From NCBI GenBank assembly GCA_003054495.1, contig CP028514.1, forward strand, positions 2,558,001-2,622,000: 64,000 bases of DNA, given 5' to 3'. This stretch comes from Carboxydocella thermautotrophica. Its GTDB lineage: Bacteria > Bacillota > GCA-003054495 > Carboxydocellales > Carboxydocellaceae. Position numbers and translations under genes: made by a program. Under the pieces are notes generated by a model. It was not told the origin of the DNA. It did not search any database and saw only the letters and a program-made list of their open reading frames with translations. Every line of letters starts with the position of its first letter. Within the stretch, counting starts at the first letter, position 1. Below are positions 41,105 to 44,230 of the stretch, one piece after another.

Positions 41105-41635
41105 TTAAGCAGCGCCTTCCTCTTTCTTCTTGCGGATAGATTCCAGGACGTAAACCAGATTGCGCAGATTGCCCTGGAGAACATTGGCAAACCCATAAAG
41201 AGGAGCTTGCAGACCACCCAGCACTTTGGCCAGCAGCACTTCCCGCGGCGGCAAGTCGGCCAGAGCCTTAACCCCGGCAACATCGATTACCTTGCCATCC
41301 ACGATACCGGCCTTGATTTCCAGCTGCTTGTTGTCCTTGGCGAATTCACTCAGAATCTTCGCCGGAGCAACAGGATCTGTTAAGCCAAAAGCCAGTGCGT
41401 TGGGACCTTCCAGATAGGGTTCCAGATCAGACAGGCCAACTTCACGGCAAGCCAGGCGTGCCAGAGTATTCTTAACGACCTTGTATTCCACTCCAGCTTC
41501 CCGCAGGCGTTTCCGCAGCTCAGTAGCCTGAGCCACATTCAAACCCCGGTAGTCAACCAGCACTACCCCGACGGCCTGCTCCAGTTTTTCTTTCAGCTCC
41601 TGTACAACCGGCTGTTTCTCGGCAATTTTAGCCAC
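41105..41635 (-). CDS. rplJ: 50S ribosomal protein L10, GTG start
   Basis: L10 anchors L7/L12 and, with it, represses its own mRNA. The start is GTG at 41635 ([18 protein letters not shown]), six bases after GGAGGTGG; the longer open frame to 41743 merely runs through the leader and attenuator. The 176-residue product has [24 protein letters not shown], in parts, and NTLARLA. The gene has its own promoter and leader, and an insertion sequence lies just upstream of that promoter. Confidence 0.97.
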
Positions 41636-41840
41636 AATTCCACCTCCTTGCACCTGTATCGGTACATCCCAAGCCGCGAAGTCAAACAAAAAAGGGTCTC
41701 CGTAGACAAGCCAGGAGACCCTCTGATGGACATACTTAGCCAACAGAGTTGACTTCCAAAGCCTCGGTAGGCGGATTTCTCCTTTAAGCCAGCAGGCACC
41801 GACTGTCTACAGCTTGGTTCACCTATATCAAATTGTCAAC
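41636..41840 (-). ncRNA. L10 leader with attenuator hairpin
   Basis: The 200-base leader of rplJ has a clear intrinsic terminator at 41688-41721 (GGGTCTCC/GGAGACCC plus six T) some 50 bases before the start codon. Upstream lies a structured stretch (41740-41820) where the L10-L12 binding fold of the Firmicute L10 leader is expected. The model is that free L10-L12 binds and favours the terminator. Confidence 0.75.
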
Positions 41841-41846
41841 AGGTTA

Positions 41847-41875
41847 ATTATAGCCTGGCCAGAGGCTATTGTCAA
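41847..41875 (-). promoter_or_regulatory. rplJ promoter, full consensus
   Basis: On the minus strand TTGACA (41870-41875), exactly 17 bases, TATAAT (41847-41852). The insertion sequence with its target duplication begins two bases upstream of the -35, so the promoter is intact. Confidence 0.88.
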
Positions 41876-41877
41876 CA

Positions 41878-41892
41878 GTACAGGAAAGATTT
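41878..41892. repeat. Target-site duplication, left copy
   Basis: The 15-mer gtacaggaaagattt flanks the insertion sequence here and at 43520-43534. Matching element-end bases extend the apparent identity to 19. Confidence 0.85.
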
Positions 41893-41970
41893 TGTGATTA
41901 TCTTGTGATAATGTCACCTTGTAAAGTATTTTGATAAAATGTCACTATGAGAAACGAGGTGCGTTATCTA

Positions 41971-43293
41971 ATGACACAAAAACAACTAAATAGGTACAAG
42001 GTAATTTCTTCCTTAATTGATGGGAAACTATCAATCAGTGAAGCAGCTATGAGCTTAGGTCTAAGTGAACGCCAGATTAAGCGCCTTAAAAAAGGAGTGA
42101 TGGAACAAGGGCCGGCGTTCCTTATCCATAAAAATACAGGTCGTAAGCCGCAGCATGCGCTCACTGACGAGCTTAAAAGCAAGATTATCTTATTGAAACA
42201 GTCCGATAAGTACAAGAACGCCAATTTCAAGCACTTTATGGAGCTTCTGGAGGTGCACGAGGAAATAGCCATAAGTTATTCCTGTCTCCACACTATTTTG
42301 ACCAAAGCAGGCATTAACAGTCCTAAGAAACGAAGGAGATTTAAACCTCATCGCCGCAGAAAGAGAAGGCCTCAGGAAGGCCTCCTTATACAAATGGATG
42401 CCACTCCTTTTGAATGGTTTGGCACTAATGAAAAGTTTGCTCTCCATGGTGCAATTGACGATGCCACCGGGAAAATAGTAGGACTCTACCTGGCCAAGAA
42501 TGAATGCTTGCAAGGATATTTTGAGGTAACCTGGCAAATCGTTAACAAACACGGTATTCCAGCAAGTATCTATGCAGACAGACACTCAATTTTTCTCTCC
42601 CAAAACGCTTCAAGGCTTACGATTGAGGAGCAATTGCAAGGCAAAGTTGTTAACGACACCCAGTTTGGCAGAGCTATGAAAGAGCTAGGTATAACCCTTA
42701 TTCCAGCACGTTCACCCCAGGCCAAAGGTAGAGTAGAGCGACTATGGGAAACGCTTCAAAGCAGGCTCCCCGTTGAATTCAAAATAGCCGGTATTACCAC
42801 TATTGATGAAGCTAATGAGTTCCTATCTCAATATATAGAGAAATTTAACAGTCAGTTTGCAGTGAAAGCTTTAGAGCCAGAAACTGCTTATAGGGCGCTT
42901 GACCAAAACATTGATATTGGCCATATACTATGTGTTAAACAAAAAAGAACTATCGATAATGGGGGCGTATTTTCTTTCTATAACAGGCATTTTAAGGTTA
43001 TCTATAAAGAAACCAATCCTATTCCGCCACGTACGAAGATAGATGTATTAATAAGTCCGGTTTTTGGTGTAAAAGTGCAATACAAAAACACTGTATTTGA
43101 AACGATCCCCTATGTTAAGCCACAAAAGACGCAAAAGCCAAAAACTGAAGCTACTGAAAGAAAGCCCTATATACCTCCAGATACGCATTACTTTAAGTAT
43201 GGACACAATCTGGTTAAAAGACTTACCTACGAAGACAGTGACAGGGATATATTAAAAATGCTTGAAGAGATATTTCTCCGAAAGTATGCTTAG
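41971..43293 (+). CDS. DDE transposase (rve integrase core), IS1202/ISNCY-like
   Basis: A 440-residue transposase. An N-terminal helix-turn-helix (SISEAAMSLGLSERQIKRLKK, about 21-41, in parts) is followed by a basic stretch (RRRFKPHRRRKRR) and the catalytic core: Asp143 in LLIQMDATPF, Asp203 in IYADRHS and Glu256 in QAKGRVERLWE. The ATG at 41971 with GAGGTG upstream is preferred over one at 41947. The frame is intact with all catalytic residues, so the copy may be active. It is the only plus-strand gene in the ribosomal region. Confidence 0.9.
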   Translation: MTQKQLNRYKVISSLIDGKLSISEAAMSLGLSERQIKRLKKGVMEQGPAFLIHKNTGRKPQHALTDELKSKIILLKQSDKYKNANFKHFMELLEVHEEIAISYSCLHTILTKAGINSPKKRRRFKPHRRRKRRPQEGLLIQMDATPFEWFGTNEKFALHGAIDDATGKIVGLYLAKNECLQGYFEVTWQIVNKHGIPASIYADRHSIFLSQNASRLTIEEQLQGKVVNDTQFGRAMKELGITLIPARSPQAKGRVERLWETLQSRLPVEFKIAGITTIDEANEFLSQYIEKFNSQFAVKALEPETAYRALDQNIDIGHILCVKQKRTIDNGGVFSFYNRHFKVIYKETNPIPPRTKIDVLISPVFGVKVQYKNTVFETIPYVKPQKTQKPKTEATERKPYIPPDTHYFKYGHNLVKRLTYEDSDRDILKMLEEIFLRKYA

Positions 43294-43314
43294 CTTTGCC
43301 TGGATCTAATTTTT

Positions 43315-43447
43315 AGGAACCTTAACCGGGCTTGATTTGCCAAAAGTTATGAAGTGAGGTTAAGTCAAGGGCGGGCGAAGCCCGTTCACTTTACCCTTGA
43401 CTTAACCGAACGTAATAACTACAATTGCCAAAGCCCGGTTAGGTTCT
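43315..43447. repeat. Long imperfect inverted repeat inside the insertion sequence
   Basis: About 65 bases downstream of the transposase gene pair with the following 65: arms run AACCGGGCTT / AAGCCCGGTT, GGTTAAGTCAAGGG / CCCTTGACTTAACC, and the loop end GGGCGAAGCCC folds by itself. It probably ends transcription from both sides or serves the element in some other way. Confidence 0.75.
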
Positions 43448-43519
43448 TAGCAGGGTGTGACATTTTGTGACGATAATTAACCCTATTTTGGGGTGACATT
43501 TTCACAAGTTATTGACACA

Positions 43520-43534
43520 GTACAGGAAAGATTT
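43520..43534. repeat. Target-site duplication, right copy
   Basis: Second copy of gtacaggaaagattt, directly abutting the rplA stop codon. Removing the element and one copy restores an rplA-rplJ spacer in which the rplJ -35 lies about 20 bases after the rplA stop. Confidence 0.85.
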
Positions 43535-44230
43535 TTAACGAGTAACCTTTAACGGATTGACCTTAATGCCAGGGCCCATAGTGGAGGAAACAGCCACTCC
43601 CTTGATATATGTTCCCTTGGCAGCTGCCGGCTTAGCCTTGAGCAAAGCATCCAGCAGAGTATAGAAGTTGTCCAGCAGCTTCTCGGTACCAAAGGAGACC
43701 TTACCAATGGGCGCATGAATGTTAGCACCCTTGTCAACCCGGTATTCCACTTTACCAGCCTTAATATCTTTAACAGCCTTGGCTACATCAAAAGTAACAG
43801 TTCCGGTTTTGGGGTTAGGCATCAGGCCTTTAGGACCTAAGATCCGACCCAATTTACCTACAGCACCCATCATATCCGGAGTAGCTACGGCTGTATCGAA
43901 ATCCAGCCAACCGCCCTCAATCCTGGCAATCAGGTCTTCAGCGCCCACTACGTCAGCGCCAGCAGCTTCTGCTTCCTTGGCTTTCTCGCCTTTAGCGAAA
44001 ACAACTACACGGGCAGTTTTCCCTGTGCCATGGGGCAGTACTACTGCACCCCGAACTTGCTGATCCGCATGCCGGGGGTCCACACCTAGTTTAACTGCAA
44101 CCTCAACGGACTCATCAAACCTGGCAGAAGCCAGTTTCTGTACCAGTTCCAGAGCTTCCTGAGGATCATACAGTTTGGTTTTGTCTACCTGTTTGGCAGC
44201 TTCCAGATATTTTTTACCGTGTTTAGCCAT
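43535..44230 (-). CDS. rplA: 50S ribosomal protein L1
   Basis: L1 forms the mobile stalk that guides E-site tRNA out. The 231-residue protein has [24 protein letters not shown], in parts, [26 protein letters not shown], in parts, and the end [17 protein letters not shown]. It follows rplK and is directly followed by the insertion-sequence target duplication; the coding sequence itself is untouched. Confidence 0.98.

Follow-up and report, generated by a model that had tools for sequence, protein, structure and literature searches.

A recent IS1202-family insertion beside the rplJ promoter of Carboxydocella thermautotrophica suggests promoter targeting by long-duplication members of the family

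Introduction

Insertion sequences of the IS1202 family carry a transposase in which the seventh residue after the catalytic glutamate is a glutamine (PMC10132070). Members with short target duplications, of the ISAjo2/ISAba32 type, are directed to dif or pdif sites with the XerC site 5 bp away, and the members with long duplications showed no conserved target (Harmer et al. 2023, PMC10132070). By its own statement that paper had few independent copies of long-duplication members, and the word "promoter" is absent from its available text. In the accessible literature, no IS1202-family element was found described as targeting promoters. Promoters are known as targets of TnGBS, ISLre2 and part of ISKra4 (p-MULT 3 and 4), which according to the available text of Guerillot et al. 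2014 (PMC3942029) insert upstream of sigma-A promoters, at 15–17 bp from the −35 box, mostly in one orientation and with duplications of 8–9 bp; contact of these elements with the transcription initiation complex was proposed there.

Here we describe an insertion sequence in a 64,000-nucleotide stretch of the C. thermautotrophica genome (the window) and compare it with related elements. The reading that we prefer, with a probability of roughly 85%, is that it is a recent and intact long-duplication member of the IS1202 family that targets promoters and is guided by a promoter complex, this last part being inferred.

Methods

Relatives of the element were collected from its own genome and 61 kin genomes (12 of the 61 with a match), from 398 genomes of the same phylum (34 with a match at E 1e-50), from 350 genomes of the phylum of genome G405 (24 with a match), from named assemblies (39 loci) and from plasmids (13 fetched among the best 60 of 4798 matching records). 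The viral contigs scanned contained no relative of the element. A script called an insertion site where TGT/ACA ends coincided with an inverted repeat and with a direct repeat no shorter than 14 bp. From 244 loci it gave 50 distinct sites; 168 loci, many of them fragments or second fetches, had no qualifying repeat pair and 26 repeated sites already counted. After correction there were 51 sites: L231 was turned on the basis of tblastn, L147 had its ends placed manually, and L152 was a manual addition. The 25-bp duplications of L147 and L152 are minimum lengths, 27 bp being possible. Sites from one genome have a transposase in common, and the 51 sites represent 31 element types from several phyla.

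Promoters were recognised from sequence alone throughout, and the script thresholds and the list of left-end motifs were fixed after examples had been seen. The two-box threshold called for at least 4 of 6 matches in each box and a spacer of 16–18 bp. In a second scan, independent of duplications, the left end was set by an internal motif only. Out of 215 loci, 47 lacked a usable left-end motif and another 65 were repeats or contained N, which left 103 distinct left ends to be scored; some Chloroflexota loci (L221, L224), given a wrong left end by the motif, were kept among the 103 as misses. The transposase tree had 28 rows and long branches, and the short-duplication loci were left out of it.

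Results

The element and its insertion site

A complete, intact insertion sequence of 1625 bp lies between rplA and rplJ/rplL (Table 1). The earlier note had recognised this position, the matching ends and an unbroken DDE transposase, and all three hold: the terminal repeats, TGTGATTATCTTGTGATAATGTCACC on the left and TGTCAATAACTTGTGAAAATGTCACC on the right when read inward, are identical at 22 of 26 positions, and the transposase frame is open over its full length. The direct repeats, which the note gave as perfect and 15 bp long, are indeed perfect but measure 17 bp (CAGTACAGGAAAGATTT). A second copy in the same genome (G000:C1:257426-259058) is 100% identical, has its own 17-bp repeat, AAATTTTAAAGAAAAGG, and puts the right tip two bases earlier, so a 15-bp duplication is rejected. 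The two extra bases (CA) that the note had counted to the right end belong to the target, because the second copy has other bases there. A 17-bp duplication thus accompanies the element at two independent sites. Copies lacking 15-bp repeats, which the note named as grounds for refutation, have no bearing as worded, since relatives have duplications of 15–18 or about 25–28 bp. A third copy in the same genome (G000:C1:2531459-2534387; L003, L005) is broken and its flanks no longer match; an apparent IS3-type element interrupts it.

Table 1. Features of the insertion sequence and its surroundings, in window positions
Feature	Position	Strand	Remarks
rplJ (L10) ORF	41105..41743	-	true start inside; named by eye from translation
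L10 leader RNA (RF00557)	41679..41830	-	downstream of promoter
−10 box TATAAT of targeted promoter	41847..41852	-	17-bp spacer
−35 box TTGACA of targeted rplJ promoter	41870..41875	-	abuts duplication
Target duplication, left copy	41876..41892	.	17 bp
Insertion sequence	41893..43517	+	TGT...ACA ends; IS1202 family, long-duplication part
Left terminal inverted repeat	41893..41918	+	
Inner (subterminal) repeat beside left end	41921..41945	+	inverted pair I3
Transposase ORF	41947..43293	+	448 codons, unbroken; D151, D211, E264, Q at E+7
Long imperfect hairpin, transposase stop to right end	43314..43449	+	z −6.67
Inner (subterminal) repeat beside right end	43457..43481	-	inverted pair I3
Right terminal inverted repeat	43492..43517	-	tip TGTCAA read inward
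Target duplication, right copy	43518..43534	.	17 bp
rplA (L1)	43535..44230	-	named by eye

The only genome of the same species that was met, G061, has an empty site with one 17-mer and no insertion sequence (contig C68, position 1455), and 200 bp on either side are identical to the window. As judged from these two genomes, this confirms that the insertion between rplA and rplJ is recent, as had been supposed, and polymorphic. It also follows from the empty site that the promoter predates the element. G061 has a second insertion in common with G000 (L247, L250 versus L002) and left ends of its own (L245, L248, L251).

On the right, the rplA stop codon (43535–43537) touches the duplication. On the left, the minus strand carries, directly at the edge of the duplication, a perfect TTGACA-N17-TATAAT followed by the L10 leader and rplJ. 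Numbered from this promoter, the duplication extends from −36 to −52, and the element begins at about −53. Because the promoter and the 17 bases immediately upstream of it are left intact, the insertion is tolerated even upstream of rplJ. The note was correct that the rplA stop and the rplJ promoter are spared, but what it treated as a mere detail is, on comparison of the sites described below, a targeting rule, with the promoter as the apparent target. A dif target was rejected for this element, as the base beside the duplication begins a promoter and not a XerC/XerD site.

Family membership and anatomy

The transposase matches NCBIfam profile NF033594 with 433 bits (cut-off 250); from the profile name and the plasmid members that it matched, we take NF033594 to be the IS1202 group. 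Glutamine rather than lysine or arginine is found at E+7, and E264 and Q271 are invariant in all 10 aligned transposase sequences. Other features of the family are also present: TGT/ACA outer ends with imperfect repeats in the 24–26 bp range, a second, inner repeat copy near each end (pair I3, 25 nt, 76% complementary, weaker than the outer terminal pair), and a duplication that falls within the 15–18 bp of the ISTde1 subgroup. The subgroup names and duplication lengths, with 15–18 bp for ISTde1, are reportedly those of Siguier et al. (2023, in Plasmid). The long duplication suggested by the note as an IS1202-type trait is thus supported together with the profile match and the glutamine. The element does not belong with the ISAjo2/ISAba32 subgroup, which has 3–5 bp duplications beside a XerC site, as it has 17 bp and a promoter. 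With TnGBS it shares a fixed distance and orientation to a sigma-A promoter; membership of TnGBS/p-MULT (Mutator-like, 8–9 bp duplication) was rejected, since the only Pfam matches are rve and HTH and the duplication is 17 bp. By the features tested in its sequence, the element is a member of the IS1202 family that resembles TnGBS in targeting.

Going by published descriptions, as far as available, rather than by ISfinder sequences, the element resembles IS1202, ISTde1 and ISHahy13 in transposase family, Q at E+7, a length of 1.3–1.75 kb, TGT/ACA ends, inner repeats and duplications of 16–28 bp; unlike in those descriptions, a promoter lies beside its left end. The transposase may start at an inner ATG (41971), which by eye has a better-placed GAGG than the start at 41947. 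Its predicted fold (mean pLDDT 78.7) is most like TnsB of CAST and Tn7, IstA and MuA, the likeness being in the modelled transposase core, and a sequence profile search found TnsB at 1.5e-08. TGT/ACA ends and repeated end sites are further likenesses to Tn7. The Tn7, CAST, IstA and MuA systems use targeting helper proteins, of which MuB and IstB are examples, whereas the ORF list of the 1.6-kb element holds no second convincing gene besides the transposase. In a phage collection, relatives of the transposase occur in elements of about 9–13 kb (16 Vibrio 'PE' records among H63–H79), in many records 34–46 bases from one end, so that IS1202-type transposition may serve a larger mobile or satellite-like element there.

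The hairpin lies in a span (43294–43470) with a folding energy of −73 kcal/mol (z −6.67), and Rfam has no family for it; a terminator, an end structure or an RNA are candidate roles. The right tip reads TGTCAA (outward TTGACA; 43512–43517 in the window) at 38 of the 51 sites, and GATAAT is found at left-end positions 15–20 in many element types (41907–41912 in the window). In other insertion sequence families, circles are formed in which the ends are joined with 3 bp between them. If the present ends were joined in this way, the resulting TTGACA-N17-GATAAT would be a junction promoter for the transposase.

Promoters beside the left end

The duplications at the 51 sites are 17 bp (29 sites), 16 bp (11), 18 bp (7), 15 bp (2) and 25 bp (2) long. 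In the left flank, TTG stands exactly at the edge of the duplication in 44 of 51 cases, and at most 4 times at any of 39 other offsets; TAnnnT follows at N17 in 37. The base counts at flank positions 1–6 are T49 T47 G45 A39 C33 A29 and at positions 24–29 T40 A42 T25 A36 A35 T40, with T28 and G27 at positions 21–22 as in extended −10 promoters. On the right side TTG is at the edge at 4 of 51 sites, and there is no promoter signal in 12 columns and no TTG or TAnnnT peak over 40 offsets. The two-box threshold is reached on the left at 41 of 51 sites, on the right at 1 of 51, and at 0.64% of 4540 nearby positions. Of the 31 element types, 24 have at least one passing site and 21 pass throughout, and the GC-rich hosts (L155, L156) have the same pattern.

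Ten sites remain below the threshold (L028, L049, L052, L155, L160, L166, L182, L219, L227, L231). Several of these have one good box, for example TATAAT in L028 and TTGACA in L231, and L182 has a 15-bp spacer. L166 was scored from the inner of two copies, and its outer left end has TTGACA-N17-TATAAT at 16 bp. At this locus (G205:C1:803000-808300) the two copies stand in tandem beside a perfect promoter, with the same 17-bp repeat between them.

The −10 box contributes beyond the −35 hexamer. Among target sites with TTGAC, 24 of 29 have TAnnnT at N17, compared with 84 of 1179 other TTGAC occurrences in the same DNA; the 22 target sites without TTGAC have TAnnnT at N17 in 13 cases and at N18 in 6. 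As far as these counts go, the −10 box is selected in its own right. The 350 bases downstream contain the start of an ORF of 100 codons or more at 37 of 48 sites, compared with 23 of 48 on the opposite side, an excess that lends weak backing to the promoter calls.

In the scan without duplications, 75 of 103 left ends had a promoter score of at least 9.5, 63 of them at a distance of 14–20 bp, 11 at 25–28 bp and a single one at 32 bp. On the wrong strand, used as a control, 9 of 103 reached this score, scattered. The gap between left end and −35 box thus falls in two distances, 16–18 and 25–28 bp. The 25–28 class comprises elements from G233, G401, G243 and G048 and two Enterococcus plasmid elements, and its 7 rows in the long-branched transposase tree are separated from the 21 rows of the 16–18 class by a fully supported branch. 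On Enterococcus plasmids (L184, L187, L188) an IS1202-like element of the 25–28 class lies upstream of the resistance gene cfr(D); in L184 the abutted promoter-like sequence precedes cfr(D), and an intact duplication was found in none of the three. Inspected by eye, the left-end fragments of G061, G004 and G000 have a promoter in 7 of 11 distinct cases, one of the seven being the L002 insertion; of the four others L246/L003 is rearranged and L254, L257 and L008 are decayed. At a contig end, the left end of L020 adjoins a tRNA-like sequence.

Discussion

The register of the two boxes with the left end makes it very probable that long-duplication members of the IS1202 family insert in one orientation next to sigma-70/sigma-A promoters. 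Promoter homing itself has precedent in TnGBS, ISLre2 and ISKra4; what is new is its occurrence in the IS1202 family and a duplication that fills the gap to the −35 box. As far as the available descriptions go, both groups insert in an oriented manner at a fixed distance upstream of the −35 box. TnGBS, ISLre2 and ISKra4 have a Mutator-like transposase and place the right end beside the promoter, whereas the window element has an rve/TnsB-like transposase and places the left end there.

Within the family, the ISAjo2/ISAba32 type has the same layout of left end, duplication and host-protein site in one orientation. In its case a 5-bp gap leads to a XerC site, and in the long-duplication members about 17 or 27 bp lead to a promoter. 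In the short-duplication plasmid relatives collected here (L185, L186, L263–L267), 5 of 7 have a XerC/XerD-like site that starts about 5 bp from the left end, as expected from PMC10132070, and for L265 and L267 the script found no left end.

In the sequences, the left end points at the promoter and the duplication spans the distance to the upstream edge of the −35 box, 16–18 bp in most members and about 25–28 bp in one branch. DDE transposases make two end joins that are staggered by the duplication length, and it follows that the right end was attached at the −35 edge, near −36, and the left end some 17 or 27 bp farther upstream. In the proposed mechanism the transposase would be docked on sigma region 4 or on RNA polymerase holoenzyme positioned at −35/−10. 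The short-duplication relatives, thought to be guided by XerC on dif, may be a parallel case. Since both boxes matter, the holoenzyme is favoured over a naked hexamer, and docking of the transposase on a promoter complex already in place fits a join that is constant at the −35 edge and a second one 17 or 27 bp away. On these grounds guidance by RNA polymerase in a promoter complex appears somewhat more probable than its contrary.

The main rival is that the transposase reads promoter DNA directly, mainly TTGACA, without RNA polymerase, its own right end having the same hexamer. The strongest positions are the T, T and G at the edge (49, 47 and 45 of 51), as direct reading would predict, and the tip TGTCAA is common among the sites. 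However, the −10 box is far more frequent than at other TTGAC sites and keeps its place at sites without TTGAC, and elements with other right tips (TGTTAG, TGTCGT) abut promoters too, so we consider direct reading unlikely. Near-random insertion followed by selection for copies that spare promoters and genes would agree with the intact rplA and rplJ, and such selection is common for insertion sequences, but a distance exact to one base is beyond its reach: with TTG at the edge at 44 of 51 sites, one orientation and a blank right flank, this explanation is very improbable. Chance is rejected on the register counts.

It could also be argued that the pattern is a product of the search, through end calling, AT-rich DNA and a few copied sites. 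Several sites do come from one genome, the thresholds were chosen by us, and the family paper, in its available text, gives no conserved target for long-duplication members. Against this stand the 31 element types from several phyla, the right-flank and wrong-strand controls and the GC-rich hosts, and the paper by its own account had few independent copies (PMC10132070); a search product is scarcely credible. We therefore retain promoter targeting as the preferred reading.

From 5 to about 17 and on to about 27 bp, each step in distance is close to one helical turn, which may point to a periodicity. A rule for the whole family can be suggested, tentatively and at slightly less than even odds: the transposase would dock on a host machine already bound to DNA, which would be XerC in the 5-bp members and RNA polymerase with sigma in the 16–18 and 25–28 bp members. 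The right end would be joined at the edge of this machine, and the left end farther out by 5 bp, to which no, one or two helical turns are added. The unusual length of the duplications would then reflect the geometry of docking, and a TnsB/MuA-like lineage would have acquired promoter homing independently.

Conclusions

Promoter targeting would give a widespread group of insertion sequences the target that was not found for it in the 2023 family paper, as far as its available text shows (PMC10132070), and would unite the long-duplication group and its dif-hunting relatives by one layout. Promoter homing, known from Mutator-like elements, would be present in a second, unrelated transposase lineage, in what appears to be a one-gene system suited to direct testing of targeting by the transcription machinery. 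It would also explain harmless residence within a ribosomal-protein operon, and the rule predicts landing places, such as those upstream of cfr(D) in Enterococcus plasmids.
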